Positions 21,274 through 56,874 of a stretch of DNA of 63,357 bases are shown here, piece by piece. The stretch is from a virus. Every line of letters starts with the position of its first letter. Within the stretch, counting starts at the first letter, position 1. The stretch covers positions 1 to 63,357 of the IMG/VR virus record IMGVR_UViG_3300017917_000669; one strand, written 5' to 3'. Made by a program: the position numbers and the translations under genes. Below the pieces are notes generated by a model. The model was not told the DNA's origin and did no database searches. It saw only the letters and a program-made list of their open reading frames with translations.

Positions 21274-21315
21274 ATAGTAGAATTTTTTACGTGTTTTGTG
21301 TATAATAAATACGTC

Positions 21316-21341
21316 TGTAGATGCTCATGGTGAGGTCTACA
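21316..21341 (+). repeat. Leader hairpin upstream of hsp20
   Basis: Stem TGTAGA/TCTACA (21316-21321 with 21336-21341) and inner stem CTCA/TGAG with loop TGG. It lies just after a TATAAT at 21301-21306 and about 18 nt before the SD, so it does not sequester the SD directly. Confidence 0.5.
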
Positions 21342-21372
21342 TTAGTCATCTTGCTTAATAAGGAGAAAACAA

Positions 21373-21807
21373 ATGACAAACCTATCCCTTCGTTCCCTAG
21401 ACATTCCGTCTATTCACAAATTCGCAGTTGGATTCGATAGTATCTTTGACGATCTAATCATGCGTACCGCACAATCTACTAACTATCCGCCCTACAATGT
21501 TGTGAAATACTCTGATGATGTATTCAGCATTGAATTGGCTATAGCTGGTTTCAAAGACGGAGAGGTTACAATCACTACAGAGCGTAACCAACTAACTGTC
21601 AAAGGTGAACAGAACCCAGAACTTTATGAGCGTGAATACCTACATCGTGGTATCAGTGCCCGTAATTTCGTTCGTACATGGACTCTTGCAGACCATGTTG
21701 AAGTGGTTGGTGCAAATTCAGAGAATGGTATTTTGACTATTTCGTTAGAACGTAAAGTTCCGGAAGAGCAAAAGCCCAAGTCTATTGCAATTAACTACGC
21801 TAAATAA
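21373..21807 (+). CDS. Small heat-shock protein (Hsp20/IbpA type)
   Basis: A 144-aa protein. The alpha-crystallin domain spans about 38-130 (VFSIELAIAGFKDGEVTITT, AWNFVRTW-like ARNFVRTWTLADHVEV, and GILTISLERKVPEE), and the C-terminus carries an I-A-I tail motif (SIAINYAK). sHsps hold unfolded proteins for refolding or degradation. The SD is AAGGAG. It is flanked by clpX and clpS and followed by a terminator. Confidence 0.93.
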   Translation: MTNLSLRSLDIPSIHKFAVGFDSIFDDLIMRTAQSTNYPPYNVVKYSDDVFSIELAIAGFKDGEVTITTERNQLTVKGEQNPELYEREYLHRGISARNFVRTWTLADHVEVVGANSENGILTISLERKVPEEQKPKSIAINYAK

Positions 21808-21817
21808 TATAATAGCA

Positions 21818-21846
21818 GTGTGCGGTACTTACGCCGCACACTTTTT
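21818..21846 (+). terminator. Intrinsic terminator after hsp20
   Basis: GTGTGCGG/CCGCACAC 8-bp stem, 8-nt loop, then TTTTT. Confidence 0.9.
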
Positions 21847-21860
21847 GAAAGAGAATAACC

Positions 21861-22166
21861 ATGTCAAAGACTGATGCAAAAGTAAAGATTAAACCTAACC
21901 TCGCATTGCAGGAGCCCCCACTGTTCAAAATCATCTACATCAACGATGATGTAACTACAATGGAGTTTGTGGTTAGTTCTCTCATTGATTACTTTGATTA
22001 CACTACAGATACCGCAATGTCAATCACTACTGACATTCATGAGTCAGGTAGTGCAGTGGTAGCAATTTTGCCCTACGAAATCGCAGAGCAAAAGGGCATT
22101 GAAGTCACTTTGGAAGCTAGAACTCAGGGCTATCCGTTGCAGATCAAAGTAGAAGCCGAAGCTTAA
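21861..22166 (+). CDS. clpS: ClpS N-degron adaptor
   Basis: A 101-aa protein. The ClpS core is clear: EPPLFKIIYINDDVTTMEFV, then DIHESGSAVVAILPYEIAEQ, with the NDD and His of the N-degron pocket present. In bacteria ClpS docks on the ClpA N-domain and delivers substrates with N-terminal Leu, Phe, Tyr or Trp. No clpA is seen here, so it must act with host ClpA or divert it. The start follows GAGAATAACC. Its stop overlaps the convergent gene by 4 bp. Confidence 0.93.
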   Translation: MSKTDAKVKIKPNLALQEPPLFKIIYINDDVTTMEFVVSSLIDYFDYTTDTAMSITTDIHESGSAVVAILPYEIAEQKGIEVTLEARTQGYPLQIKVEAEA

Positions 22167-22855
22167 ACCTCAACGTCTACACGTTTAGCCCAATAGGGTT
22201 TTCTGTTGTAGTACGGATTACAAACATAGTTGATGCCATCTTTATTGGTATCAACTATTTTTCCATATGAGCCGTACACCCAATGCGAGACTTTTGATTC
22301 TAAGTCCGCTATCAACGTCATTGTCAACTCCGGCAATGTAGACAATTCAGCGGGTTGTTCCCCGAAGTATAGATCCGGGCTAGGAACAGCATTCGTGAGA
22401 ACCAGTATCTTCTTTACATCCAAATGTTTTTGTAGCTTGTCTATAGAATGTTTGAGATATGCTAGGTCTTCGTATCTACCTATGCCATGAAGCTCCTCAA
22501 ACTCATCTAACTGTTCTCCACCATATCTACCAGGACAACCCAATACGGCAACACCATCAATGATAACAACATGATGGTGTAACAATGCAACGTTTCTGAT
22601 TTTCTTGCAGATGCGTGTGATTTCTTTAATTCTGATATCATAATTTTCCACACCCTCGAACTCTAATGAGCCCGGGGTATAGAAAACACCTTGATAAAAT
22701 TTAGCCAAGTGATTCAAAGTCTGGGCTACTGTTCGTAGATCGGTACTTATATTCCCTGCTACTAAACAGTATAGACTAGTTGCCTTATTCTCCCAATTGA
22801 AGCTAGCTTCAGGTGAGAGATTCAAATCGCTTATTAAATCGAACCCAATTTTCAT
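22163..22855 (-). CDS. Metallophosphoesterase-like protein lacking metal ligands
   Basis: A 230-aa protein that follows the calcineurin-like phosphoesterase layout but with its ligands replaced: SDLH is SDLN (Asp 10 kept, Asn 12), GD is GN (Asn 35), GNHE is GSLE (62-65), the GH before APS is TN (154-155 before AVPS), and GHTH is GSYG (195-198). The NP-x-Y end (CNPYYNRKPYWAKR) remains. The intact phosphoesterase at 46304-47152 has the same order of blocks. It is probably a non-catalytic binding protein. The late-like site GCTAAATAA just upstream is weak. Confidence 0.7.
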   Translation of the reverse strand: MKIGFDLISDLNLSPEASFNWENKATSLYCLVAGNISTDLRTVAQTLNHLAKFYQGVFYTPGSLEFEGVENYDIRIKEITRICKKIRNVALLHHHVVIIDGVAVLGCPGRYGGEQLDEFEELHGIGRYEDLAYLKHSIDKLQKHLDVKKILVLTNAVPSPDLYFGEQPAELSTLPELTMTLIADLESKVSHWVYGSYGKIVDTNKDGINYVCNPYYNRKPYWAKRVDVEV

Positions 22856-22858
22856 CTA

Positions 22859-23152
22859 TTATTTAGCGACGGTCATTTTGGGCTTTTTAGCTTTTGACTT
22901 AGCAGGGGCCTTAGGCTTATCTGTAGCTTTGATAGCTGCCGGCTTCTTAGCACGTGGCTTTTTAGCTGGCGCCGCAACGGGGGCAGCTTCGACTGCTGTA
23001 ACAGCCGGTTCAGCAACGGGCGCAGGAACTACGACCGGTTCAGGTACCTTGTACGGTGCAGGTGCAACTGCTTCTTCCACTTCCTTCTTATTGCGGAACA
23101 CGAAGAACCAGACTGCGGCCGCTACTGCGGCCAATATAATAGCTAATTCCAT
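22859..23152 (-). CDS. Membrane-anchored Lys/Ala/Pro-rich protein
   Basis: A 97-aa protein. One N-terminal TM (MELAIILAAVAAAVWFFVF), a Pro/Val/Ala/Glu linker, then a basic histone H1-like tail (AKKPRAKKPAAIKATDKPKA). It could tether DNA or polyanions to the membrane. The SD is AGGAGATC. The upstream minus-strand site TTAAATAC resembles a late promoter. Confidence 0.7.
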   Translation of the reverse strand: MELAIILAAVAAAVWFFVFRNKKEVEEAVAPAPYKVPEPVVVPAPVAEPAVTAVEAAPVAAPAKKPRAKKPAAIKATDKPKAPAKSKAKKPKMTVAK

Positions 23153-23223
23153 TGTTTGATCTCCTAAAAATAGTTAGCATAGTATTTAACGAAAAAATGC
23201 GTATACATCATTTTTTCCCGGTC

Positions 23224-23231
23224 TATAAATA
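23224..23231 (+). promoter_or_regulatory. T4-type late promoter (TATAAATA)
   Basis: An exact TATAAATA lies 8 bp before the ATG of the SprT-like gene. It implies a very short leader. Confidence 0.6.
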
Positions 23232-23239
23232 ATAGTACT

Positions 23240-23737
23240 ATGGCCAAGTACAGTCAACTACAGTGTTTGATGTCCGAGGGTCTTCCTAACAGAACTTCTC
23301 AAAAGAGGTTGATGTACAGGACGACTCCCAAAGAGGTATTGGAGCTATTTCATATCATAAACCGAGAGGTTTTCAATGATAAACTACCCGTCCCCCATAT
23401 AGAAATCATGCCAAACTGTAGGAAGTATTGGGGATTGTGCCAAGCACATTCTTTCACATTGCACCCCAATCCAAAGAAATCTAACTGTACTATCAGACTA
23501 ATGGACAAGTGGTTCTGCAAACAATGGCTTATATCTACACTAGCGCATGAAATGTGTCATCAGTATCAGTGGGATGTAATAGGACACAAGCGAGTTAAAG
23601 AGGGTAAGGCCCCTCTTATGAGCCATGGTCCTAGCTTCTATATATTCAGAGATAAACTAGCAAAGCACGGAATCCCATTGAAACGTGCTATGGGAATGCG
23701 TAGATGGTTCCGTCATCAAAACTTGTTTAAGTGTTAA
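23240..23737 (+). CDS. SprT-like zinc metalloprotease
   Basis: A 165-aa protein with the zinc-binding HEMCHQYQW (HExxH) near residue 110, in the SprT layout of beta-sheet then helix (LFHIINREVFNDKLPVPHIE, RLMDKWFCKQWLISTLAHEM). The eukaryotic member Spartan degrades DNA-protein crosslinks; bacterial and phage SprT roles are poorly known. Preceded by a consensus late promoter, so probably a late protein. Confidence 0.83.
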   Translation: MAKYSQLQCLMSEGLPNRTSQKRLMYRTTPKEVLELFHIINREVFNDKLPVPHIEIMPNCRKYWGLCQAHSFTLHPNPKKSNCTIRLMDKWFCKQWLISTLAHEMCHQYQWDVIGHKRVKEGKAPLMSHGPSFYIFRDKLAKHGIPLKRAMGMRRWFRHQNLFKC

Positions 23738-23741
23738 AACG

Positions 23742-23749
23742 CATAAATA
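23742..23749 (+). promoter_or_regulatory. T4-type late promoter (CATAAATA)
   Basis: CATAAATACT lies just before the start at 23756. It extends past the core with CT, as many T4 late promoters do. Confidence 0.5.
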
Positions 23750-23755
23750 CTAATT

Positions 23756-25303
23756 ATGCGTGAATACATCAATCTAATCCAAAATCTCAGCGAAGACCGA
23801 ACTCTAAGTGCTAGCACAATCTTAAAGAGACCCGGTCGTTTTCAAGCCTTCGTATCAATGATACAGAACGGCACAGCCTTCTACACAACAGACAAAGAAC
23901 CTGTTATCGTTGATCCTGCAGAAGCAGACAGAATGCTTGAACTATTCGATAAAGGCGAGTTCAAGGGAACAATCAAGTTAAACACAGATCAAGGTGTATT
24001 ATCACTTAATCAACTACTCAAATCCAAAGAACTAGGCGGACAAGCTTCCACCGGTGAAGAAGGGGAAGAGTTAAGCAAAGAAGCAGCATTGTTAAAACCA
24101 AGTCAGATTGGTATCACTGACAAAGATATTCCTGCAAGTCAGCTAGGTGAAGAAATCATCAACAACTCTGTACTTCAATCAACTGAATACGGACGAGCAG
24201 TTATCTCTATGGCTGAAGCTATTATGAATGGTCAACCTGCTGTTATGCCAGAAGAACTACGCAAAACTAAGATTGGCGTTAGTATCAATGACTATGCAGG
24301 TGAATATCTAGGTGTTCTCGCTCTAGTATACGGTCAATCACGTTTCCCTAGAAAGAAGGGTTTCACAGAATGGTTGGGTGCTGATGTAAGCGAACTAACA
24401 TTGTTCTTCCCTGTAGAAGCAAACACACAACTTGCTGATAGCTTTGCTAGTATCAGCAACGACAAAACAAACCACAAAGTTAATATCTCTAGTAAAGGTG
24501 GTGGCGGTGGCGCTCCCCCAAGTATCAGTGGTCTAAAAATTCCTGAAGATATCAGAAATAACCCTGACTATGCAGCCGCTGTTGCATTCATTGACTTAGC
24601 AGATGCCGGCGATGCCAAGAAGGGCATTCCACCTAAGTATCCATTACCCTCACCGAGAACATTGAGTATTGTATTCCAAGCAATGAACTTGATTAATGAA
24701 TATGTTCCGGAAGCTATCCCGGAAGAATTCGCACCGTTTCTGCCATGGAAATCTGACATTGTAAAACAGTGTAGAGATAGCATCGAGGGTTACAAGAAAG
24801 GCAAACCTATTGAAATGCCAGAGTACAAAGCAATCACTGACACTGTTAAGTCTGACAAGGCAAGTGATGGTGGCAAGTTAGCGTACGCCGTTAAGAAAGC
24901 AGTCATGCAGGCTGTTAACGAGAATGATGCTATTCCTGGATTCCAAGACGTTGTTCTAAACATTCTAGATATGAACTTTGTTCAGCAATATGCTGACTAT
25001 AACAAGAAAACAGGTGTTATGAGTTTTGCTACACAATGGCCTGCAAAGCTAGATGGTTATATCTCATTAGAAAGCAAGTCTGGTGCTACTGATCCAACTA
25101 AGGGTGGATTCAGCTTTAAACTATCCAATAGCAAGCCCAAAACAGAATTGCCCGAACCTGATGAAACTGCTTCTAGCGGTGATAAGGTCGTTACGGATAA
25201 AGGGTTTGCGAAGGCCGCAAGTGCATTAGCAGGCGAACCCTCTCGCAAAGCAACTAGCGTCAAGAAGCCAGAAGTGGGCAATGTAGGGCGCAAAAAGCGT
25301 TGA
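23756..25303 (+). CDS. Large probable virion-internal protein (515 aa)
   Basis: The N-terminus MREYINLIQNLSEDRTLSAS carries an L-S-E site like T4 gp21 cleavage sites in capsid-targeting leaders. The next block (LKRPGRFQAFVSMIQNGTAF) recurs, as I recall, in large T4-like phage hypotheticals. A glycine run (SSKGGGGGAPPSISGLKIPE, about 247) separates two halves. The C-terminus is basic and low-complexity. Late-type promoter directly upstream. Function unknown; packaging is inference. Confidence 0.65.
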   Translation: MREYINLIQNLSEDRTLSASTILKRPGRFQAFVSMIQNGTAFYTTDKEPVIVDPAEADRMLELFDKGEFKGTIKLNTDQGVLSLNQLLKSKELGGQASTGEEGEELSKEAALLKPSQIGITDKDIPASQLGEEIINNSVLQSTEYGRAVISMAEAIMNGQPAVMPEELRKTKIGVSINDYAGEYLGVLALVYGQSRFPRKKGFTEWLGADVSELTLFFPVEANTQLADSFASISNDKTNHKVNISSKGGGGGAPPSISGLKIPEDIRNNPDYAAAVAFIDLADAGDAKKGIPPKYPLPSPRTLSIVFQAMNLINEYVPEAIPEEFAPFLPWKSDIVKQCRDSIEGYKKGKPIEMPEYKAITDTVKSDKASDGGKLAYAVKKAVMQAVNENDAIPGFQDVVLNILDMNFVQQYADYNKKTGVMSFATQWPAKLDGYISLESKSGATDPTKGGFSFKLSNSKPKTELPEPDETASSGDKVVTDKGFAKAASALAGEPSRKATSVKKPEVGNVGRKKR

Positions 25304-25328
25304 CATTTACTAGACTTCCCTGTATAAT
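25300..25328 (+). promoter_or_regulatory. Early-type promoter for clpP
   Basis: TTGACA (25300-25305), 17 bp, TATAAT (25323-25328). It overlaps the stop of the preceding late-type gene, so clpP is timed separately. Confidence 0.88.
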
Positions 25329-25352
25329 AAATTTTATTTTACAAGGAAGTTT

Positions 25353-25943
25353 ATGTCTCTAGTCCCTATCGTTTTGGAACAAACAGCACGTGGTGAGCGT
25401 AGCTATGATATCTATAGCCGTTTACTGCGTGATCGTGTTATTTTGCTTGAGGGCGAAGTTCATGACCAAATGGCAAACTTGATTGTTGCCCAACTATTGT
25501 TCCTTGAGTCTGAGAACCCAGACAAGGACATTTCTATGTATATCAATAGCCCGGGCGGCTCAGTAACTGCAGGTATGGCTATCTATGATACTATGCAATT
25601 CATCAAACCTGACATTCAAACAATTGTCATGGGACAGGCGTGCAGTATGGGTTCACTGTTAGCGCAAGCAGGTTCTAAGGGCAAACGTATGATGTTGCCC
25701 AATGCACGACACATGATTCACCAACCCAGTGGCGGTGCTCGAGGTATGCAAAGTGATATCGAAATCTCTTACAAAGAAATCACCTACTTGAAAAAGCGTT
25801 TGACTCAAATCTACGTTGACCACAATAGCAAAGGTAAGACGTTTGAAGAATTTGAACGTGATATGGATCGTGACAAGTTCATGAGTGCTGAGGAAGCATT
25901 GGAATACGGTCTGATCGACACAATCTTGAAAAATCGCGGTTGA
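25353..25943 (+). CDS. clpP: ClpP serine protease
   Basis: A 196-aa protein, full length without a long propeptide. The catalytic triad is present: Ser 98 in GQACSMGS, His 123 in [10 protein letters not shown], and Asp 174 in [10 protein letters not shown]. The axial-loop N-terminus ([20 protein letters not shown]) and the oligomer-sensor region are standard. It can form a 14-mer chamber with the phage ClpX, which keeps the IGF docking loop. Expressed from its own early promoter. Confidence 0.97.
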
Positions 25944-28556: not shown

Positions 28557-30992
28557 TTATCCTATGTACCAATTAGTACCATCTGACCAGACTGGGCAAA
28601 TGTTTGAGCCGCCACCACTGACTTGTGCGCCAAAACTTCCTCCTCCGGCTGAAACTAAATTACCATCATTGATAAATGCACGTGCTCCAGCTACAGCAAC
28701 TAACGTAGAATAAGGGACTGGTGTTGTCACAACATTAATTCCAAATGTTGCGGTACCAAAACCACTTAAATACGGAGCAGGGCTTGCTGACTCTGCTATT
28801 AGATTACCCGGAATAGTTGTGTTACCGCTGTTATCAAGTGTCCAAGTACTTGCTCCTGCACTAATATTTACATTACCATATTCTGATAGACCGTTACCTG
28901 ATTGTCCGGCATTAAGATTAATATTGCCGCCCGGGCCAGCACTACCATAGCCGCCGGTAACAGTAGCGTCACCGCCACTAACACCATAACCACCGACGAT
29001 TTGAGCATATGCACCCTGACCGTTACTGCTTTGTCCGGCAGTCATACGTACATAACCACCTTGGTCAAAGCCACGACCACCCTCAATGTTTACGTAACCA
29101 CCGTAGCCTGCTGATACATTGTCTGCATCACCTGCATAGATTTTGATATCGCCGCCGTAAAGATCAGCGTCGCCGGCCCAGAAGTAAACATCACCGCCTT
29201 CGCCTGTTCCACTAGCACGTTGACCTTGAATGATTAATCGTTGTGCGTTTATATTAGCACTAGGCGTTGGACCAGTTATGATTGCTTGCTGTGTACTATC
29301 ACCAAACTGTAATGTTTGTGCAGTTTGATTACCACCATTGTGTAAATCTACAGTTAGTGTTGGGAATGTTGTTGTACCATCGTTAGCAAAGGTCCAATAG
29401 TTAACAGTAGTTGAGTTATTGCCGACTCCCATGACTAGATTACTAGCGCCATTAGCCAATGGATTATTGAACGCAATAGCCACTACATCTTCTGGTCCAC
29501 TACTATTTGCTGTCCAGCCCACTATCACTGCGCTGTTAGCACCTTCTCCTATAACTTGAAGAGGTGCATCAAATTGATAAATGCTTGAGCCTCCACCAAT
29601 GTTCGCACCAATCACTAAGTTGCTTGGAGTTGTTAAGTTGCCGTCACTACCAAATTTCCATTCACTATTGCCGGCATTTGCTAAAATGCCAAAGCCAACG
29701 TTGGCTGGCATCTCAAATCCAAAGTTGCCTGTACCCTCAATATTATCTTGTGCAAATGTTCCATCCGCAAATTCTAATGATGACCCTGCACGTGTCAACT
29801 TTAACGAATTCTCAGCATGAGAAATTTTACCGAACTCATTTGCTGTGGTAAAGCCACCGGTGGCAAATATAATATCTTTTACGTTACCATTCTCTCCGGT
29901 TGCTAAAACTAAACTAGAATTTCCATGACCGTTCGCATACCCCTGAACAAATACATAGCCATCACCTTCACCGGTGATAGTATAGTTAGGATCATCAAAG
30001 TCATGACCAGTAAATCCAAAGTCAGTCCAAGCTCCGGCGTCACTACCATTAGCACCGTATGCTACCCAGTCACTGGATCCAATTGGGTTTTGATTAATTA
30101 ATCCAGCTTGAACATATGTATTGCTACTAGCACTGATAACCAGTGTCGGATCCGTTAGTTCAAAATTCCCTGAATCAGGTCCGATATTAACCCTAGTACC
30201 TTGGAAGTTCGCATTTGCAGGGCAATATATTTGACCGTCGGTTGCAAAAGTAAAATGCAAATCGGCATTAGCAATGTCAGTAGAAATCACCAAACCTTGA
30301 TTAGACTTTAATTCGAACTCACCTTCTTGATTTGATTCTAAAAGGTGTCCACCTGGTATTTCTAATGCACCGCCAATAGTAAATATGAACGCCGGGCCCG
30401 GTGTGCCTGCTGTTATTGTTACATTAGAGCCATCAGGACTTTGAATAGATTCAGTAATAACGTTACCTGCAACAGCAAGATCATTAGAAGCTTTGTTAAA
30501 AGTTAGTCCGGCATCTCCACCAAATGCGCCGCTGTCATTGAATTGTACTTGACCGTCAGATCCACCCGGAGTTCCTCCACCGCCTGATTGATTAACCCAA
30601 CTTAATGTACCAGTGCCGTTTGTTGACAGAACTTGCCCACTAGAACCACCCGTGATACGAATGTTCCCTACTGGACCTAATGCTACGTTACTTGCCCCAG
30701 TAAAGTTGGCGACCCCGGTGCTTGTTATACCAGTTAACGTCCCTACACTAGTGATATTAGGCTGGGCTGCATTTGATACTACTCCTGCAAGACCAGCAAC
30801 GTTTGCAATGTTTGCTTTGGCTGCATATGCATATGTGTTGCCTGCTTCTGAAAGAATAGCATTTGCAATATTTGCAATTGTTGCTTTCTTTGTAGTAGGT
30901 GTCCCTGCCATGTCAACGACAGGAGTTAAAGTAGATGCAGGGATGTTTGTCCCTATCTGACTAAGTGCTGTTATTTTTATTGTGTCAGTCAT
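28557..30992 (-). CDS. Tail fibre-like repetitive structural protein (811 aa)
   Basis: A long Gly/Asn/Thr/Ser-rich protein with repeated short beta units and phrases such as GSSGQVLSTNGTGTLSWVNQ and GSDGQVQFNDSGAFGGDAGL, typical of phage tail fibre or adhesin shafts. A Gly-rich repeat zone (about 600-720, GGYVNIEGGRGFDQGGYV) suggests a beta-helix or collagen-like rod. The C-terminus (SGGGSNICPVWSDGTNWYIG) looks like a capping or trimer unit. It lies 15 bp downstream of a second fibre-like gene. No chaperone or lyase motif seen. Confidence 0.78.
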   Translation of the reverse strand: MTDTIKITALSQIGTNIPASTLTPVVDMAGTPTTKKATIANIANAILSEAGNTYAYAAKANIANVAGLAGVVSNAAQPNITSVGTLTGITSTGVANFTGASNVALGPVGNIRITGGSSGQVLSTNGTGTLSWVNQSGGGGTPGGSDGQVQFNDSGAFGGDAGLTFNKASNDLAVAGNVITESIQSPDGSNVTITAGTPGPAFIFTIGGALEIPGGHLLESNQEGEFELKSNQGLVISTDIANADLHFTFATDGQIYCPANANFQGTRVNIGPDSGNFELTDPTLVISASSNTYVQAGLINQNPIGSSDWVAYGANGSDAGAWTDFGFTGHDFDDPNYTITGEGDGYVFVQGYANGHGNSSLVLATGENGNVKDIIFATGGFTTANEFGKISHAENSLKLTRAGSSLEFADGTFAQDNIEGTGNFGFEMPANVGFGILANAGNSEWKFGSDGNLTTPSNLVIGANIGGGSSIYQFDAPLQVIGEGANSAVIVGWTANSSGPEDVVAIAFNNPLANGASNLVMGVGNNSTTVNYWTFANDGTTTFPTLTVDLHNGGNQTAQTLQFGDSTQQAIITGPTPSANINAQRLIIQGQRASGTGEGGDVYFWAGDADLYGGDIKIYAGDADNVSAGYGGYVNIEGGRGFDQGGYVRMTAGQSSNGQGAYAQIVGGYGVSGGDATVTGGYGSAGPGGNINLNAGQSGNGLSEYGNVNISAGASTWTLDNSGNTTIPGNLIAESASPAPYLSGFGTATFGINVVTTPVPYSTLVAVAGARAFINDGNLVSAGGGSFGAQVSGGGSNICPVWSDGTNWYIG

Positions 30993-31007
30993 GTTATTTC
31001 CAATTGA

Positions 31008-32144
31008 TTATGCGGCTACGCTTTTGATTACAGCAAAGTTGAATACTGGCTGTTCAGTAGTAGTTCCCGATACATCTGAGAACGTGATGTTGAAGCTGCC
31101 GGCTGCTACGTTGCTTATCCATGTTTCGTACTTGTCAGTGCCTGACTTTTGATTAACAATAATAACGTCAGTTGCTGCAACTGTGCTGTTTGTGACAGTA
31201 AACGTAGTATATGATGATGTGCCTGCGGCTGAAACTAATGTAATAGATCCACTAGGTTTGTTTATAGTAACACCGGTTGTACGTGATGTAGTTTGTGTAA
31301 CTGTGCCGCCGGCACCTGTTGCATAACCAATACCGCCGGTGCTGTTAGCAGTGATGTTACCTACTGCAATGTTAGCCGGCAAATCTACAGTGATAGTACC
31401 TGCAGCAACGATAGGGCTACCTGAGACTGTCAATGTTGAACTGTTAACTGCAATACTAGTTACTGTGCCGGCCCCTGCTGCGGTGGAAACAGTAATATTA
31501 CCATTGCTGCCACTCAGTGTAATACCTGTGCCCGCGCTCAAACGAGTAACACCGGTATTTAATATTGTTATGTTTCCTGATGTAGTTACAGGGCTTCCTG
31601 TAACTTGAATGCCAAATCCGGGAGTTATACCGACGCTAGTTACAGTACCGACGCTAGATGCGTTAGAAATACTTGTCACACGACCATATGCATCAACAGT
31701 CAGCGTAGGATAGGTATATGTTGCTGGAGTAACTCCAGTGGTTGCAAGATCAAGAGTAATGTTACCTGAACTAATGATCGGGCCACCGGTGGATGTTAGT
31801 CGAGAACTAGATGCAGTAAGAACACCTACGGACGAAACCCCGCCTCCTCCTCCGCCACCTGCTGCTGTAATAGTGATGGCACCATTACTAGCAGACAACG
31901 TTACACTGCTATCACCCGCAGTTAAACTAGTAACACCTGTGTTTGTGATATCAACTGTTCCGAGCGTAGAGTTCGCATGTACTGTTATACCGGTATTTCC
32001 AGTAAAAGTATTGAAGGGGCTCGAATTTCCGAATAGAGTAGCGAAGTTAGTTTTTGCTTTATTGAAGGCGGTATAGAGCGAATCGCTACCGATTGACTCA
32101 TTTTGTACGCCTATATTTATGACTTGTAGCCCTGAAATTGCCAT
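31008..32144 (-). CDS. Fibre-like structural protein (378 aa)
   Basis: The N-terminus (VGVQNESIGSDSLYTAFNKA-type) is a conserved virion-attachment-like domain. The rest is Thr/Gly/Val-rich beta repeats (GVTSLTAGDSSVTLSASNGA, VTRLSAGTGITLSGSNGNIT). It precedes the 811-aa fibre gene in the same operon. SD AAGGA and a late-type site upstream fit a structural gene. Confidence 0.75.
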   Translation of the reverse strand: MAISGLQVINIGVQNESIGSDSLYTAFNKAKTNFATLFGNSSPFNTFTGNTGITVHANSTLGTVDITNTGVTSLTAGDSSVTLSASNGAITITAAGGGGGGGVSSVGVLTASSSRLTSTGGPIISSGNITLDLATTGVTPATYTYPTLTVDAYGRVTSISNASSVGTVTSVGITPGFGIQVTGSPVTTSGNITILNTGVTRLSAGTGITLSGSNGNITVSTAAGAGTVTSIAVNSSTLTVSGSPIVAAGTITVDLPANIAVGNITANSTGGIGYATGAGGTVTQTTSRTTGVTINKPSGSITLVSAAGTSSYTTFTVTNSTVAATDVIIVNQKSGTDKYETWISNVAAGSFNITFSDVSGTTTEQPVFNFAVIKSVAA

Positions 32145-36666: not shown

Positions 36667-37254
36667 TTACTTGTTAGCAAGAGGATTGTCAATAGCTTTC
36701 TGGATCTTGTTATCCACTTCTTTCTTCAATTGGACAACTTCACGCTCTATTTCTCTGCGTGCATCAGCCATTTCTCTACGAATAGTGTTGGCTTCGTTAC
36801 GTGCTTTTTCCAAATCTTCACGAACTGCTTTACGCATTTCACGCATTTCGGCTTCCGTTTCACGTTGGGCTTGCTTTACGCTACGCTCAACTTGCTCGGT
36901 CACAGACTCATTACGGCGCAAGTCATTCTTCAAATCCGTTTTGATATCACGTGTGTAATCACTAGTTTTGGCACTGTTTTCCTCGATCACTGCTAGTCGC
37001 TTATCGAACCCACTTAAGTCCGGTGCAGAGTATTCAGCAATCTTTTTCTTCATTCCCACATAGTCTTTGTAGACTTCAAACGCACCGTAGAGTCCACCGA
37101 GTGTGGAACTAACCAACGTTAGTGCTACCATTAGTTTTGCAGGAGTGAACTCGTAGCCACCGATACTGATAACTGTATCTTTGCTGGCATACTTCTTCAT
37201 CGCTGCTTCTGCTTCGTCAATCTTTGCGTTAACGTTTTTTATTTCTTCTGTCAT
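36667..37254 (-). CDS. Single-TM protein with long coiled coil (195 aa)
   Basis: A hydrophobic segment (KLMVALTLVSSTLGGLYGAF, about 40-60) is followed by an Arg/Glu-rich coiled coil to the C-terminus (REMRKAVREDLEKARNEANT). Two tiny TM genes lie directly upstream in the same direction. A membrane scaffold or spanin-like role is possible but unproven. Confidence 0.72.
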   Translation of the reverse strand: MTEEIKNVNAKIDEAEAAMKKYASKDTVISIGGYEFTPAKLMVALTLVSSTLGGLYGAFEVYKDYVGMKKKIAEYSAPDLSGFDKRLAVIEENSAKTSDYTRDIKTDLKNDLRRNESVTEQVERSVKQAQRETEAEMREMRKAVREDLEKARNEANTIRREMADARREIEREVVQLKKEVDNKIQKAIDNPLANK

Positions 37255-37256
37255 TA

Positions 37257-37391
37257 TTATCTCCCAATCAATGCCGAGTTAATTTGTTCGGCTCGCTTGC
37301 TGATGATCTTATCAGCGACTTTTACAGTGTTATAGATGCTGTAGCCTAAAAAGACTGCGAGGGCAACTATTATAATGTAACCATATTTCAT
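37257..37391 (-). CDS. Small single-TM protein (44 aa)
   Basis: ATG at 37391, stop TAA at 37257-37259. One TM helix (GYIIIVALAVFLGYSIY) plus a charged tail. SD AAGGGAG. Next to two other TM genes. Confidence 0.62.
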   Translation of the reverse strand: MKYGYIIIVALAVFLGYSIYNTVKVADKIISKRAEQINSALIGR

Positions 37392-37406: not shown

Positions 37407-37535
37407 TTAAAACAACGAGTTCTTTTTCTTAGGTTTCTCGAAAACCCTATCAATGAATCTGATTCCGGCGTACAACACAAGTACCAAAACTACAACCATC
37501 GATACAGTGTTCCAACTAATTAAATTATCTAACAT
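37407..37535 (-). CDS. Small single-TM protein (42 aa)
   Basis: ATG at 37535, overlapping the end of the 610-aa exported protein by 11 bp. One TM helix (SMVVVLVLVLYAGIRFI) and a basic tail (EKPKKKNSLF). Confidence 0.62.
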   Translation of the reverse strand: MLDNLISWNTVSMVVVLVLVLYAGIRFIDRVFEKPKKKNSLF

Positions 37536-39357
37536 ATTGCATCTCAATCATTTCTCTGTGCTTAGAATCATTGGTCATCTGACGCAATGCTCTAGCGTTG
37601 TCAACGTTACGTTGATTCTTGTAAACTTCTTTGGGTGCGTAGAATGCCGCATCCTTCAATGTGAAGTTCATGTAGTCACCGTACCCGATTGGTGCAAGTG
37701 CCATTTTGTTAATGTCTACCCCACCTGCAACTTCATTGTTACCGGCGTTCTTGTTAACGCTAGGACCAGTTGTTGCTATAGTATTGTTTTGAGGAACGCT
37801 CTGTTTAGCCTCAATGATATCAGTAAGTGGGTTAGTTCTATCAGTCAAGAAGTTAGTAGGTACTATAGAGTAAGTCTCTGAGGTTTGAGTTACTGACTTA
37901 TTTTGTGTAATGGGTTGCACTTGTTGAATAGCTTCTGTCTGAATGTACGCATTCATAGGAGCCACGATAGATTGCTGTGGTTGTAGTAATGGTAGAGCAT
38001 ACGTAGCTGCTGTGTTAGATGTTAGTTGTTGCGACACTGTATTAGCTGTTGATACTGGTTGATTGATAGACGCACTCATTGCAGTAGAGCCAGCATTTTG
38101 TTGTGCTGACGTTGAGCTAGAAGTTTGTGGTCCCAACATACTAGTTAAATTAGTGATACCGGGTTGCAACGAAAAGTTTGTGCTAGCGGTAGTATTCAAT
38201 TTGATACCATTTCCGCTAGTTTGCTGATTGCTACCTGACACTGCATTTACAGTTAAGCTGTTTGCTACCGCATTACTTGCTACGCTTGCTGCTTCCTGTT
38301 GGGCTTGTTGTGCAGCTTGTTGTGCTTGAGATACTGCTGATTGTGCGACTGCTGCGCCTGTGGCATCACGCTCACTGTTTTTACTAATGATGCTCAATGC
38401 CAAACTAGTGTTGCTGGAATTTGATTGTGTTTCTTTCGTAGCGGTAACAGTTGAGGTAGTTGATGTTGTAGTCGTAGTGGGGGCGACAATTGGCTGTGCA
38501 ATAGTACTTGTACTAGTAACACTAACAGTAGATGCGATTGGATCAGTCACTATTGTTGTTGTAGTTGTAGGGGATGTTGAAGTGGTTGTGATTGGTTCGC
38601 TAGTAACAGTAGTAGGCGCCGGCGCAAGTTTTGCTAACGCCTCTAGATAACCCGGACATGTTGGACTGCTCAGTACGTTCATAGAACATTGATCTACGCT
38701 ATACTTCAAACTGAAACTTACATTATAAATTTCCGGTCCGTAGGGGCCGGCCCAGTAGTTATTGTCTCCACCGACAAAACCATAAGTAACTGTTTTCAAA
38801 TCTTTACTCGCATAAGGTGTATCAAACGTTTCACTAAAATTAAATGTCGTCCAATCAAACTTATAGTTCAAATCATAACTTTTACTATAGGCTAGCTTGT
38901 TGGATTTGTCTTCAAAGTTCACATATGCTGTTAAGTAGTCAACGCGGCCATCGTCCCAACCATTGCCATTCTTAGCAGTAAACCCAAAATTATACCCGTT
39001 TACTTGTAGGCCACTGCCTATACTAGACAATGCATTATTGATATTCACTGTTTGATGTACATCCGTGATTCCATAGCTAAAGTTAAAAGAACCGTTATTG
39101 TAGTAAGGTTGTGGCCCGCAGTATACAGGACCACCTGGCCCCCAACACGGTAATCCTTGATTCACTAATCCTAGATTTTGCCATGTGCCGGTTGTGTTAG
39201 TAGGGCTCATGGTATTATTGACTAGGTTAACTGTATTGTATACTTGCGATGGATCAAGGGTAGACCCTGCAGGTAGCCCACTAGTGGTGCCGGCAGTCTG
39301 CTGGGCTGACACCCCACTACATACTAGTGCAATGGCTAATGCTATCTTCTTTAGCAT
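37525..39357 (-). CDS. Exported Thr/Ser/Gln-rich protein (610 aa)
   Basis: The Sec signal peptide MLKKIALAIALVCSGVSAQ is followed by a folded N-terminal domain with paired Cys and many aromatics (about 60-240), a Thr/Ser/Val low-complexity stretch (about 245-310), a Gln/Ala/Ser region, and a conserved-looking C-terminus (DAAFYAPKEVYKNQRNVDNA, then RALRQMTNDSKHREMI) that I recall in T4-like phages beside proteins like its neighbour. Likely periplasmic or outer surface. It lies 1 bp after the Asn-repeat gene. Confidence 0.75.
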   Translation of the reverse strand: MLKKIALAIALVCSGVSAQQTAGTTSGLPAGSTLDPSQVYNTVNLVNNTMSPTNTTGTWQNLGLVNQGLPCWGPGGPVYCGPQPYYNNGSFNFSYGITDVHQTVNINNALSSIGSGLQVNGYNFGFTAKNGNGWDDGRVDYLTAYVNFEDKSNKLAYSKSYDLNYKFDWTTFNFSETFDTPYASKDLKTVTYGFVGGDNNYWAGPYGPEIYNVSFSLKYSVDQCSMNVLSSPTCPGYLEALAKLAPAPTTVTSEPITTTSTSPTTTTTIVTDPIASTVSVTSTSTIAQPIVAPTTTTTSTTSTVTATKETQSNSSNTSLALSIISKNSERDATGAAVAQSAVSQAQQAAQQAQQEAASVASNAVANSLTVNAVSGSNQQTSGNGIKLNTTASTNFSLQPGITNLTSMLGPQTSSSTSAQQNAGSTAMSASINQPVSTANTVSQQLTSNTAATYALPLLQPQQSIVAPMNAYIQTEAIQQVQPITQNKSVTQTSETYSIVPTNFLTDRTNPLTDIIEAKQSVPQNNTIATTGPSVNKNAGNNEVAGGVDINKMALAPIGYGDYMNFTLKDAAFYAPKEVYKNQRNVDNARALRQMTNDSKHREMIEMQYVR

Positions 39358-39358
39358 C

Positions 39359-40531
39359 TTATTCCTTTAGACCGATTGTAGGAATCTTGTCTGGATTTGC
39401 TGCCCATGCTGTTGCAGCCTGTTCACCGATCTTACCTTCGTATGGGCAAGGTGTACCTGCTTGCATCATAGCATCGAACACACGACGGTCTTGACACATT
39501 GTAGCAACTGCGGCAACTTTCATGCCCATGTCGTACAATGTCTTAGATAACTTTAGTCGTTCACAATTTGCGTCACGCATTGTTGAACCGAAACTCAAAC
39601 CAAAGATTTGAGTCTGAGTTGCGGCACTAACACCTGTCACGCACAAGTCTGTACCCACGCTCATCATTGGAGGTGCGATAGCAGTTGGTGGTGGTTGAAT
39701 CAACTTCTGAGTAATCGTTGTTTCGTTGATGTTACGATTAGTCATTTCACCACTTTGAATGTTTTGATTCACATTCGTAGCAGTGCTAGTATTGACGTTG
39801 TTGTTTGTGTTAAGGTTTGTGTTAGCACTAGTAGTAGCATTGTTATTGTTATACGTCATAGTACCACTGTTAATGTTGTTATTGGTATTAACATTAGAAC
39901 TGGTACTTGTGCTGGTATTGACATTGTTGTTGTTGTTAGTCAATGTACCACTCTGTATATTATTATTTGTATTCACGTTGGTACTGACGTTATTGTTGTT
40001 ATACGTCATCGTACCAGTGTTGATGTTGTTGTTTGTACTAGTGGAGCTACTGACGTTGTTATTGTTAAACGTCTGTGTGCCGCTATTGATATTGTTGTTC
40101 GTGTTAACGGTCGTAGCAGTGCTTGTATTGACGTTATTGTTATTGTTCGTCAATGTGCCACTTTGCACGTTGTTGTTTGTGTAAGTGACGCTACCACTCA
40201 TAGCGTTATTATTGTTATACGTCATAGTACCAGTGTTGGTATTCTGATTAATATTCGTCACAGTTCCGCTACTTACGTTATTGTTATTGTATGTAATGGT
40301 TCCTGAGTTAATATTGTTGTTAGTGTTCGTGCTGGTACTATTAACCGTACTGGTGCTAGTATTTGTGCTGGTACTAGTGCTAGTGTTATTAGTGGTTACT
40401 GTACTAGCACTGTTGCTAGTACTGTTCGTATCAACCAATGTCTTACTGTCGTAAGTTCCTTGATTAATCAAGGTTTGGGCCGACACCCCAAAGCCGGCGG
40501 CTAGAGCCAGCGCCAAAATCGTCTTTTTCAT
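39359..40531 (-). CDS. Exported Asn/Thr/Ser ladder protein with Cys-rich C-terminal domain
   Basis: 390 aa from the ATG at 40531. Signal peptide MKKTILALALAAGFGVSAQ, then about 230 residues of imperfect repeats built from NNNNVSSGT- and INSGTMTYNNNN-type units, the composition of a beta-solenoid with an Asn ladder. The C-terminal domain (about 275-390) has four Cys (DLCV, ANCERL, TMCQD, TPCPYE) likely forming disulfides after export. Its late-type promoter (40588-40595) and the exported partner downstream suggest an envelope function late in infection. Confidence 0.78.
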   Translation of the reverse strand: MKKTILALALAAGFGVSAQTLINQGTYDSKTLVDTNSTSNSASTVTTNNTSTSTSTNTSTSTVNSTSTNTNNNINSGTITYNNNNVSSGTVTNINQNTNTGTMTYNNNNAMSGSVTYTNNNVQSGTLTNNNNNVNTSTATTVNTNNNINSGTQTFNNNNVSSSTSTNNNINTGTMTYNNNNVSTNVNTNNNIQSGTLTNNNNNVNTSTSTSSNVNTNNNINSGTMTYNNNNATTSANTNLNTNNNVNTSTATNVNQNIQSGEMTNRNINETTITQKLIQPPPTAIAPPMMSVGTDLCVTGVSAATQTQIFGLSFGSTMRDANCERLKLSKTLYDMGMKVAAVATMCQDRRVFDAMMQAGTPCPYEGKIGEQAATAWAANPDKIPTIGLKE

Positions 40532-40587
40532 TCTTCTTTCCCTTTTTATTATTTTTATCGAAAGATGAGGATCTTTGTCCTCTTTGA

Positions 40588-40595
40588 TATTTATC
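40588..40595 (-). promoter_or_regulatory. T4-type late promoter (GATAAATA)
   Basis: GATAAATA on the minus strand, 56 bp before the exported Asn-repeat gene, back-to-back with a plus-strand late site. Confidence 0.6.
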
Positions 40596-40605
40596 AACTT
40601 TTGGG

Positions 40606-40613
40606 TATAAATA
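40606..40613 (+). promoter_or_regulatory. T4-type late promoter (TATAAATA)
   Basis: An exact TATAAATA, 33 bp before the ATG at 40647, with SD AAGGAG in between. Divergent from 40588-40595. Confidence 0.68.
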
Positions 40614-53296: not shown

Positions 53297-54694
53297 TTAT
53301 TTGTTGCTATTTGCTCGGACAGTAGCAAAGTCAATTTCTTTGACCAGCTTACCATCGCGGTAGACTTCTTCAAGCACCTCAGTGAATGGGCCGAAGCCTT
53401 TGTCGAACCAACCTTTGGGTTGTTCCACTGCACTAACATACTCGCCGCCAGACTTCCAGAGAGTCACACGACCAGCCTTAGACTTCTTACCACTGTCAGT
53501 GATAGGGTCTTTCTGCACATCGATCCACTCGCCGTTGATTTCTGCGCTTGAGCATTTCATAGCGAACTTTTGAGTATCACGATCAACTTGTTGCAACAGA
53601 GCACCGCCCATACCGAATGCAATATTGTCAGCACTCCAGCCCATTGCCATGAAGCCTCCTAGGATGCTACGGATAGTCAATTCATTAACACCGTCACCTT
53701 GAATCAGGCGAACGTTGTTCAGAACCTTGAAGCCTTTTGCATTGACAGTGTAGCCAAATTTCTCACCGAGGATTTCAATCAGACGTTGATTAACAGTGAG
53801 AGGATCCCCAGAGTCTGGACGGATGACAACAGTAGCGCCACTATCAATAACTTTCTGGCGAAGTTCTTCGCCCCAAAGTTTCGAGGCAGCGTTGTAGATA
53901 TCATAACTATCGCTAACCACTGCAAGAATAGCTCCAGGCTTAGCAAACTGATTAACCATGTTCTCATAGGCTTTTACTTCGTTGTCACGGCCCCAGCTAG
54001 TGATTGTGCTATGCTCGGCAGCGGGAATTGAAAAACCCACGATCCCACCACTATAAAATTGACGAGCATACAGAAGGCCACTAATAGTATCAGTGCCCAT
54101 AAAATTAACGAGGTGTGCCGCGCCGCCGATACCAGCAGACTCACAGCTAGACACACCACGAGCACCGAAGTCGTGGAGTTTAAAATCAATAAGAGACGGA
54201 TCACCAGTTTTCTCCAAGTAGTCAAGAATCACACGCTTGATACTCCAACTCTGAGTTGCTACTGTAGTACCGTACCAAGTAGCACGTAGAATCGGAGTTT
54301 CCAAGTAAGTAGTTAGCCAGTAGCATTCCGGATCAGTATTTTCAATTGTAGCCAAAACGTTACGGGTAGGCACGACTGTCCCCTCGGGAACTGCACGAAT
54401 GACAACTGGGAGGTATCCATTGTGCTTGTCAAGGATGTACTGCCATCCGGCTCTGTTGAAAGGCTCACCGTGTGCGGTAAGAATTTCGTCAGCAATGTCA
54501 ATGTCTGCCTGGGTGATTGGGCTGAGTAGGTATTCTTTGATAAAAGCCTGTAATCCGAAGAATACAGTTTTATCATAACGTCCGCCCCTTGATTCGATAT
54601 AACTATATACACCGGTGGTGCCTGCGGGATATTGTTTGAACATCGACACTTTGTAGCTGTCGGTGTTAAGAATGATATTTTTACTAAGTTCCAT
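53297..54694 (-). CDS. nadV: Nicotinamide phosphoribosyltransferase (NadV/NAMPT)
   Basis: A 465-aa enzyme that makes NMN from nicotinamide and PRPP. Family blocks are clear: YSYIESRGGRYDKTVFFGLQ near the N-terminus, KLHDFGARGVSSCESAGIGG with the active-site His (about 174), VSDSYDIYNA, VIRPDSGDP and GFMAMGWSADNIAFGMGGAL. With the NMNAT gene at 55855 it completes a two-step NAD+ route. Its own early-type promoter with a leader hairpin. Confidence 0.96.
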   Translation of the reverse strand: MELSKNIILNTDSYKVSMFKQYPAGTTGVYSYIESRGGRYDKTVFFGLQAFIKEYLLSPITQADIDIADEILTAHGEPFNRAGWQYILDKHNGYLPVVIRAVPEGTVVPTRNVLATIENTDPECYWLTTYLETPILRATWYGTTVATQSWSIKRVILDYLEKTGDPSLIDFKLHDFGARGVSSCESAGIGGAAHLVNFMGTDTISGLLYARQFYSGGIVGFSIPAAEHSTITSWGRDNEVKAYENMVNQFAKPGAILAVVSDSYDIYNAASKLWGEELRQKVIDSGATVVIRPDSGDPLTVNQRLIEILGEKFGYTVNAKGFKVLNNVRLIQGDGVNELTIRSILGGFMAMGWSADNIAFGMGGALLQQVDRDTQKFAMKCSSAEINGEWIDVQKDPITDSGKKSKAGRVTLWKSGGEYVSAVEQPKGWFDKGFGPFTEVLEEVYRDGKLVKEIDFATVRANSNK

Positions 54695-54719
54695 GATAAG
54701 CTCCTTATCGCTTGTTATG

Positions 54720-54738
54720 CCTAGAGTCTATCTCTAGG
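54720..54738 (-). repeat. Leader hairpin of nadV
   Basis: CCTAGAG-TCTAT-CTCTAGG, a 7-bp stem in the transcribed leader between the -10 box (54749) and the SD. It might be a regulatory RNA structure. Confidence 0.55.
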
Positions 54739-54748
54739 ACTTGTTTAT

Positions 54749-54777
54749 AGTATAACACAACACCATTATTGTGTCAA
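54749..54777 (-). promoter_or_regulatory. Early-type promoter for nadV
   Basis: TTGACA (54772-54777), 17 bp, TATACT (54749-54754). Confidence 0.87.
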
Positions 54778-54787
54778 CTATTCCTTT

Positions 54788-55186
54788 TCACTTTGGGTAT
54801 ATCACAAAGAACGGTTTATTTTTCTTCGCCGCATAGTCATAAGTATACCAAGTGCCACCTCTTGGTTGAGGTTCCATTTGCAGAGGAACAACCAGTAAAA
54901 AGTCACAACTGTCTACGATTGTTCGGTTGCGTTTAAAGTGTGTCTGTGGTTCTTTACATTCATCGAACGGGACATATGCTCTGAGTCCGTCATTATCAGG
55001 ACCAGGGTGGCTCACAATCTTGTAACCAATCTCTTTAGCGAGTGTTGCGGCTTCTGCATCTACACCAACGCAATCACCGTGATGAAATTCTGCGCCCTCA
55101 GTATAATGCAATGACAGATATTGCTTTACCATTTCAAACTGGTGTTCTGTCATACCTTCTCTAGTTCCTGTAATTCCTATTTTCAT
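54788..55186 (-). CDS. SLOG/Rossmann-like nucleotide-binding protein (132 aa)
   Basis: GITGTREGMTEHQ at the N-terminus, then FHHGDCVGVDAEAATLAKEI and HFKRNRTIVDSCDFLLVVP, with a final GGTWYTYDYAAKKNKPFFV. This is the SLOG/DprA-like fold that binds nucleotides or NAD-derived signals in several immune proteins (for example ThsA). No effector domain is attached. It lies between nadV and the macro gene, suggesting NAD-derived ligands. Confidence 0.78.
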   Translation of the reverse strand: MKIGITGTREGMTEHQFEMVKQYLSLHYTEGAEFHHGDCVGVDAEAATLAKEIGYKIVSHPGPDNDGLRAYVPFDECKEPQTHFKRNRTIVDSCDFLLVVPLQMEPQPRGGTWYTYDYAAKKNKPFFVIYPK

Positions 55187-55671
55187 TATCCAAACTCCAC
55201 CAATGTGACAGTGCCACCTTGAGCCGAAACCTTATTGGCAAAGTCTTCAATCATTGCCAAAATTCTTTTCTTGTCACCACCAGCCAAACCCATACCAATG
55301 TAGGGCAGACCAAAACGATGACGACCATATTCATGTGCCAGTTTGCGTAGAATCACAGCAAACGATTCATACTCAAATACATCTTCACCTTGTTGGCTAG
55401 TGACATATTGTGTATAAGCATTGATAATCTTGAATGGCTTGATAGTTTCATCGTAGTAACTAGACCAAGATACTGTGTAGTTGCCTAGCTTACCGATATT
55501 GCCCTTGCGAGTTTCGCTATCCACTTCCTCAGCGTGAGGATATCGTTTAGCAATTTGAGGAGCAAGACCTGCGCCCATTGCGTTGAAACAATTACAGCCT
55601 TGAACGATAACATCAAAGTCACCGTTCTCTGCCATATCAAGTAGATTACCTTTTGTTTTGATTAGCATCAT
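55186..55671 (-). CDS. Macro-domain protein (161 aa)
   Basis: VIVQGCNCFNAMGAGLAPQI is the macro-domain ligand loop, and LPYIGMGLAGGDKKRI is the second loop. Macro domains bind ADP-ribose and some remove it from proteins or hydrolyse ADP-ribose 1''-phosphate. Start at 55671 or 55668. Coupled by TGATG with the genes on both sides. Confidence 0.88.
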   Translation of the reverse strand: MMLIKTKGNLLDMAENGDFDVIVQGCNCFNAMGAGLAPQIAKRYPHAEEVDSETRKGNIGKLGNYTVSWSSYYDETIKPFKIINAYTQYVTSQQGEDVFEYESFAVILRKLAHEYGRHRFGLPYIGMGLAGGDKKRILAMIEDFANKVSAQGGTVTLVEFG

Positions 55672-55853
55672 TCATTCTCCGGTACTTCGTTGAGGATATC
55701 CTCACACATTTTCAATCCTTGTTCCCATCGTGCCATCATGCTACGAAAGGCAGCAATGTTCTCACGATTGTGAAACATGTCACCGCTCCATACTGCGGCA
55801 TCAATTTCGTCCATCGGGCCGTTTTCTAAACGATTGTAATGTTGTGTTGTCAT
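55668..55853 (-). CDS. Small hypothetical protein in NAD operon (61 aa)
   Basis: The start at 55853 (MTTQHYNRLENGPMDE) is chosen; the longer frame is inside the NMNAT gene. Helical with several Met and Trp. Function unknown. Confidence 0.65.
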   Translation of the reverse strand: MTTQHYNRLENGPMDEIDAAVWSGDMFHNRENIAAFRSMMARWEQGLKMCEDILNEVPENE

Positions 55854-55854
55854 A

Positions 55855-56874
55855 TTACGCTCCCAAGAAGTGTTGCAAAATTTCATAGTGGTCTTCAAAG
55901 CATTCTTCACTCTTGACCTCTGCGATAGGAACCCATCGTGCCTTGTCAGCATCATCTTGACCTTTTACTTTAGGCAGTTCACCATCGGGTAGTTCAATGT
56001 GAAACGCATGTGTAATGATACGACCACGTGGGCTACGGTCAATAGCATCAAAGACTTTGCTACGCTTGATGTTACCACGCAACACGGGGGCGGGTACTTT
56101 GATACCTGTTTCTTCTCTGAGTTCGCGGATAGCGGCATCTTCTACGCTACGGTCAGTGTTTGCGTTGACATAGCCACCGGGCAATGCCCACAGACCTTTG
56201 CCGGGCTCTGCTCTACGGCGAATCATCAGTACGTGACCCGATTGGATTACAACACTATCAGCAGTACTAAAGATAGGAGGATAAGGAAGTGAAGCATATT
56301 GTTTTTTATAGTTAGCCACAAACTCACGTTCGCGGATGATTTGTTCGTATTCGGAGGTTTTACTGAAAGCATTCAAGAAGTCCAGTGTAGTCTCAGGTAC
56401 GACACTACGCAGGAAGTTGAAGTTCACTTCACGACGGAAGTAGAGGTCACGAATGTCCACAGCACTCAGTGGTTCAATTTGTTCTACGTTTTCGTAATCC
56501 CATTGAGGGAACATGTCGAGGTAGAAGCTGGATTCGTCTTTCTTGTGACCAATGACCGCGGTCTTAGTACCAATGATCTGATACTTGCTGTGGATACCTT
56601 GAACACGCACAGCCCATGCTTGGTCGTTGTAGATGGTGTCAATGTTGGGTTCAACATAAACACGCATATCGAGCCCGCGAGTAGCGTTCAAGATCATTTG
56701 CCGGCGTTCGTCAAACGTAAATGGGTTTTTGTATGTGCGCGGTTGTTTGGCACTGCCTGCAATAATGACCAGTTGATCGGTCAATGCGGTGCAACGCTTG
56801 ATAATCTCAAGGTGTGCATTGTGAAGGGGCTGAAAGCGACCAATCAGCATGATGGTTCCGTATGGCTTAGGCAT
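55855..56874 (-). CDS. nadM: Bifunctional NMN adenylyltransferase / Nudix hydrolase
   Basis: A 339-aa protein. Residues 1-175 are an NMNAT, with GRFQPLHNAHLEII (the GxFxPxHxxH type) and the C-terminal LSAVDIRDLYF (SAxxIR-like). Residues about 200-339 are a Nudix domain with AIRELREETGI. Same architecture as Synechocystis slr0787, known to make NAD+ and to hydrolyse ADP-ribose. It would turn NMN from NadV into NAD+ and could recycle ADP-ribose. Operon promoter at 57491-57519. Confidence 0.94.
   Translation of the reverse strand: MPKPYGTIMLIGRFQPLHNAHLEIIKRCTALTDQLVIIAGSAKQPRTYKNPFTFDERRQMILNATRGLDMRVYVEPNIDTIYNDQAWAVRVQGIHSKYQIIGTKTAVIGHKKDESSFYLDMFPQWDYENVEQIEPLSAVDIRDLYFRREVNFNFLRSVVPETTLDFLNAFSKTSEYEQIIREREFVANYKKQYASLPYPPIFSTADSVVIQSGHVLMIRRRAEPGKGLWALPGGYVNANTDRSVEDAAIRELREETGIKVPAPVLRGNIKRSKVFDAIDRSPRGRIITHAFHIELPDGELPKVKGQDDADKARWVPIAEVKSEECFEDHYEILQHFLGA

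Follow-up and report, generated by a model that had tools for sequence, protein, structure and literature searches.

Three adjacent genes on the minus strand of the window, the whole stretch of DNA analysed here (a 63,357-base linear virus record from IMG/VR), form an obligate module, A-B-C, in which the genes are linked in 71/71 loci starting from A and in 71/71 starting from C, among the matches listed. It is highly likely that this is an exported module of the envelope. That it makes a late envelope complex whose variable lectin domain changes or masks the surface sugars of the infected cell is possible, though short of probable. With similar reserve, A-B-C may represent an unnamed class of phage envelope machine, i.e. 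a Sec-exported lectin on a membrane-anchored complex, made late in otherwise unrelated small and jumbo aquatic phages and carrying a head fitted to the host. So far A, B, and C have been listed as hypothetical or under unsupported names. Their function would reveal how aquatic phages guard the surface of the infected cell, or a new layer of lysis control.

Gene A (39359..40531) encodes a 390-residue protein, predicted to be exported, with a signal peptide, an Asn/Thr/Ser repeat rod, and a four-Cys C-terminal domain. Gene B (37525..39357) encodes a second predicted exported protein of 610 residues, consisting of a signal peptide, a lectin-like jelly roll, a helix, a disordered T/S/A/Q-rich part, and a conserved C-terminus. 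Their obligate partner, gene C (36667..37254), encodes 195 residues with one transmembrane (TM) segment followed by a coiled coil that ends in DNPLANK. An earlier note on this DNA had described A and B as an adjacent pair with Sec signal peptides; both open reading frames (ORFs) lie where it placed them, but they account for only two of the three genes of the module, C having been missed. A small optional TM gene that ends in KKKNSLF (37407..37547, minus strand) overlaps the end of B, and a second small TM ORF of 44 residues lies between B and C (37257..37391, minus strand). The KKKNSLF tail recurs in loci L029, L115, L116, L126, L139, and L165 (two of which are the same contig), and the gene sits between B and C wherever its position in other loci was checked. 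Extra exported-looking genes are located between B and C in L062, L064, L070, and L086, one of them pilin-like (ITGTV..RCVI); a pilin identity found no Pfam support in those scanned.

The phage records were searched with A by tblastn and the gene order was then read in the matching records. The A Cys domain is found in 11 phage records, including those of six cultured Pelagibacter and two Roseobacter phages. Downstream of A in these records comes a larger protein, which is exported in most of them, and then C; the two roseophages and L012 have another kind of protein in this second place. In IMG/VR, the A Cys domain has at least 597 matches and C at least 593. Among the matches listed, and with the named phages included, 71 A-seeded loci have a complete B and room behind it; C lies downstream in 70 of these by an automatic rule and in the last (L006) by eye. 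Likewise, among the 71 C-seeded loci with room upstream in the matches listed, A lies upstream in 70 and is frameshifted in the remaining one (L122). The distribution in related phages, proposed earlier as a check, is thus that of three genes recurring together in hundreds of aquatic phages.

The carriers include marine podoviruses (from 32 kb), an autographivirus, and T4-like records above 300 kb, and the C-bearing IMG/VR records reach 525 kb among the matches listed. A T4-type gp23 is present in module-bearing records of 141, 200, 300, 332, and 352 kb. Since A-B-C has stayed linked in unrelated groups of phages, whose sizes run from 32 kb in podoviruses to above 300 kb in T4-like records, it must serve a need of these phages, and its presence in cultured Pelagibacter and Roseobacter phages, HTVC023P and CRP-207 among them, makes its function testable now. 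Among 84,980 bacterial and archaeal genomes there are 20 matches, all titled metagenome-assembled genome or uncultured isolate, and the module was not found in the host chromosomes of isolates. As the genome matches occur only in uncultured assemblies, the module is very probably phage-borne. The region has no DNA-level match in the phage records, and neither Pfam, PHROG, and PADLOC (searched with A, B, and C) nor NCBIfam (searched with B) holds a model that explains the proteins; PHROG 20531, which matches A, is a family with no function assigned. The literature searched holds no description of an A-B-C module. The deposited names "lysozyme" for C and "OmpA family protein" for A (L005 6300-6722; L011 3292-3873; L005 4914-5669) are unsupported here.

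Sec signals were sought by a uniform rule-based scan of the A and B relatives and of the other ORFs of the same loci. The rule is positive for 76/82 A and 68/78 B proteins vs 127/797 of the other ORFs, and none of the 82 A and 78 B proteins has a lipobox. The best start of the window A is the ATG at 40531, giving a type I signal peptide at residues 1-18 (40478..40531), without a lipobox, with predicted cleavage between MKKTILALALAAGFGVSA and QT. In B, the type I signal peptide, likewise from sequence and scan, also spans residues 1-18 (39304..39357), with predicted cleavage between MLKKIALAIALVCSGVSA and QQ.

Motif searching locates a T4-late-type promoter element, GATAAATA, upstream of A (40588..40595, minus strand) and a second, TATAAATA, belonging to a divergent DUF4337 gene (40606..40613, plus strand). 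The leader of A contains a hairpin, GAGGAC-AAAG-ATCCTC (40567..40582, minus strand), after the promoter element and ahead of the start codon. The heptamer ATAAATA is the core of T4-type late promoters, and it occurs within 120 bp upstream of A in 25/81 relatives vs 6.0 in shuffles (largest 13). The proposed divergent late promoter pair is present as motifs, and the core is enriched upstream of A in the relatives, but in the window alone late-promoter motifs are in no excess (TATAAATA: 3 seen vs 2.3 expected). Signal peptides across the family, the invariant cysteines of A, the late-type motif in the relatives, and an obligate membrane partner together support the earlier suggestion that A and B are expressed late and exported to the envelope, where they may stay periplasmic rather than cross the outer membrane.

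The Asn-ladder repeats reported earlier in A occupy residues 67-270 (39722..40333), i.e. about 200 residues of Asn, Thr, and Ser with a 12-residue period. Low-complexity sequence of this kind invites the doubt that the repeats are products of chance or assembly. That doubt is refuted by the period test (lag-12 identity of 0.391 vs a maximum of 0.326 at any lag in 2000 shuffles), the mixed codons, and the conservation in the family, and an artefact has almost no probability left. The Asn residues are coded by both AAC and AAT, so the repeat is kept at the protein level. In the AlphaFold2 model of A (68 sequences, mean pLDDT 62), the repeats form a row of 10-residue strands (pLDDT about 50-78). 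Because these strands align by VIA on beta-helices such as SufB (Z 12.1), a match that says only "beta-solenoid", such a structure is plausible for the repeats, not proven; the structure prediction proposed earlier as a check builds a beta-solenoid, but with modest confidence. Foldseek gave no significant match with the whole A model.

The four-Cys domain (residues 295-366, 39434..39649) is the most conserved part of the module and, as the earlier note had it, is C-terminal; Cys 297, 323, 346, and 362 are invariant in 68/68 aligned relatives. AlphaFold2 models it as helical, with pLDDT of about 80-96 across the helices. Against PDB sequences, up to E 5, it gave a single match, which is unrelated, and no homology to T4 Spackle was seen at the sequence level. 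Since the shortest A has just 53 residues ahead of this domain, the repeats are dispensable. The A repeat length correlates with B length (rho 0.35, confounded by kinship), and the other length pairs among A, B, and C are not significant. A hydrophobic C-terminal tail, lacking in the window A, is present in 33/87 relatives and is often encoded where A overlaps the B signal peptide. In L014-L040, about 64 bases encode both the A tail and codons of the B signal peptide, a hydrophobic stretch used in two frames.

An exported repeat-rich protein recalls the phage-borne curli proposed for pelagiphages (PMC9599517, PMC9004378), and on that analogy the module could build a matrix or fibre outside the cell by which infected cells clump. 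Of the published systems in these phages, phage curli (type VIII secretion) is the nearest parallel: it too is a phage-borne exported module with a repeat protein, found in podo- and myoviruses of aquatic bacteria. Its proteins are, however, unrelated to A, B, and C. CsgG (PF03783) has no match in the window and 16 module-bearing records, IMG/VR contigs, the window included, being possibly incomplete, and no Pfam family, curlin repeats among them, matched A up to E 1. A curli identity was rejected on these grounds, and with dispensable repeats as well, a matrix of this kind is a long shot.

The head of B, residues 32-222 (38692..39264), is a jelly roll. The AlphaFold2 model of B has a mean pLDDT of 65, with the N-terminal domain mostly above 90, and includes a long helix at residues 317-372 (38242..38409). 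Among solved structures, the head comes closest to the domains by which the ubiquitin ligases Fbs1 and Fbs2 bind glycans (Foldseek 7e-7), and VIA aligns B residues 34-219 with Fbs1 over 155 residues (Z 13.3, rmsd 2.9, identity 13-14%). At the sequence level the two agree at one place only, a WAG-x-YGP loop, where phmmer pairs NYWAGPYGPEIYN of B with QFWAGWYGPRVTN of FBXO6 and with the corresponding segment of FBXO44; a profile search gave E 0.017. The aligned ends, 219 in B and 297 in Fbs1, give an offset of 78, so W202 of B (38752-38754) would fall on Fbs1 W280, a correspondence drawn from the alignment ends and the pairwise alignment and not from superposition. Trp280 of Fbs1 takes part in chitobiose binding by stacking on the glycan. 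The Trp motif is present in 32/78 B proteins (two chance matches removed); in lineages that lack it, the N-terminal sequences differ or are without assignment.

B thus shares with the FBA domain of Fbs1/Fbs2 (FBXO2/FBXO6) the jelly-roll fold, the WAG-x-YGP loop, and a Trp that probably occupies the W280 place. Unlike these proteins, B has no F-box and no Pfam match, and it is a phage protein that is apparently exported, with the domain carried on a stalk. The B of L010 scores 16.8 bits against CBM_4_9 (PF02018), where the cut-off is 25.9. Single-linkage clustering places 70/73 B heads in one cluster, and full-length B, from either the window or L014, has no tblastn match in the phage records.

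After Fbs1/Fbs2, the next structural matches of the head are tailspike domains and carbohydrate-binding modules. A fold so common in tail fibres and tailspikes, in a module on the same strand as the fibre-like genes of the window (28557-32144), would suit a virion part, A and B waiting in the periplasm and attaching to virions at lysis as an adhesive decoration. Phage heads and tails are, however, built in the cytoplasm; a membrane anchor and signal peptides on two of the proteins sit badly with this reading, and the literature searched gave no proteomic support for A or B in virions. We consider this reading improbable.

The low-complexity centre attributed to B by the earlier note is present, and the conserved-looking C-terminus is real, residues 547-610 (37528..37719) keeping the pattern FY.P.EIY.NQ..VDN.R.LR...SD..H..M...QY. 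Among 23 window-like modules, the median identity is 82% for the A Cys domain, 61% for C, and 53% for the B C-terminus (final 60 residues), vs 32% for the B head and 22% for the B centre. Of the folded parts, the head is therefore the one least conserved; the core is kept while the head drifts. A variable head on a conserved core fits a target that differs between hosts, such as surface glycans, unlike peptidoglycan, and the fast-diverging lectin-like head leans towards an action on surface glycans. A beta-sandwich may, however, diverge fast without glycans having driven the change, and a shared fold does not show function.

C has a single TM segment, a coiled coil, and, among the named-phage loci, an invariant C-terminal NPL (NPM in one). 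The Lys and Arg residues around the TM segment average 1.3 before vs 2.9 after it, a positive-inside count that leaves open a cytoplasmic coiled coil. The matches of C to spanin PHROGs are weak and of coiled-coil type, and the defence-system search of the module by PADLOC returned only coiled-coil matches to C. A tandem pair of C-type genes is present in L034 (8812-9914).

The main rival to an action on surface sugars is a lysis or egress module, in which C would be i-spanin-like or releasin-like and the exported A and B would take hold of the outer membrane or peptidoglycan and contribute to rupturing the envelope as infection ends; we regard this as rather unlikely. The late motif upstream of A in the relatives is compatible with it. 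Fbs-type domains bind GlcNAc-GlcNAc, and peptidoglycan contains GlcNAc, which would give the B head a target in the wall. With lysis genes identified by matches to five Pfam families or from the record annotations, an endolysin or holin lies within 2.5 kb of the module in 5/11 complete genomes (1.8 expected by random placement, P 0.02). On the other hand, the nearest known lysis gene is more than 10 kb away in the other 6/11, and likewise in the jumbo records checked; the closeness is real but weak. The module of L010, a marine autographivirus, sits between the tail-fibre genes and the terminase gene, the place of the lysis genes in T7, and in L014 a GH19 gene ends directly ahead of A. Among the genes neighbouring the module in IMG/VR, a secreted-type nuclease occurs in 11 loci, a D-Ala-D-Ala carboxypeptidase in 7, and a GH19 enzyme in 6.

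C resembles a component of the two-component spanins (Rz/Rz1) in having one TM segment and a coiled coil, in its probable late expression, and in lying at times beside lysis genes. Unlike Rz/Rz1, the module has no lipoprotein partner, none of the 82 A and 78 B proteins being one, and C was not assigned to the spanins. An Rz-like spanin gene follows A-B-C in L068, and good Rz-like matches are present in the records of L067, L087, and L043; since genuine Rz-like genes coexist with the module in these carriers, A-B-C is not simply the spanin. The releasin of Mu, gp25 (DUF2730), is a small protein with an N-terminal TM segment encoded near lysis genes (PMC9239132), and the L010 copy of C is annotated as DUF2730 in its record. 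No PF10805 match was found in C, however; the window C is longer than gp25, and C is always accompanied by A and B, so a releasin assignment was dropped.

The preferred reading, masking or change of the surface sugars, follows from the sugar-binding type of fold in B, by which the module would probably act late in infection on the host cell coat. A and B would leave the cytoplasm by the host Sec system, with C residing in the inner membrane. A would serve as a variable-length rod bearing a disulfide-type head. B would carry, on a flexible stalk, an exchangeable jelly roll of sugar-binding type and would dock by its conserved C-terminus, and C would be the membrane anchor of what we infer to be a single complex. 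This complex would present the B lectin domain to glycans of the infected cell; with the receptor sugars masked or rearranged, other phages would be excluded and released progeny would be kept from adhering to the dying host or to its debris. T5 Llp and T1 Cor are small superinfection-exclusion lipoproteins, each acting on one outer-membrane receptor (PMC9586334), and A and B may resemble them as exported phage proteins that act on the envelope of the infected cell. Unlike Llp and Cor, A and B are large and non-lipidated, and combine a lectin-type head with a membrane partner. The four functions offered by the earlier note (envelope remodelling, a block to superinfection, lysis, and a matrix) are not separable by sequence; the B head tips the choice towards surface glycans, and a curli-type matrix is not supported.

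Several other genes of the window were observed alongside the module. An SPFH/Band 7 protein (PHROG 200) whose start is of the lipoprotein type is encoded at 16561-17373 (plus strand). ClpX-, Hsp20-, ClpS-, and ClpP-like genes, recognised by eye at 20053-25943 (plus strand), make up a phage-borne proteolysis set. Nicotinamide phosphoribosyltransferase-like and NMN adenylyltransferase-Nudix-like genes at 53297-56874 (minus strand), also by eye, point to NAD salvage. A further exported protein, with a weak Tim44-like match, is encoded at 58583-59620 (minus strand).
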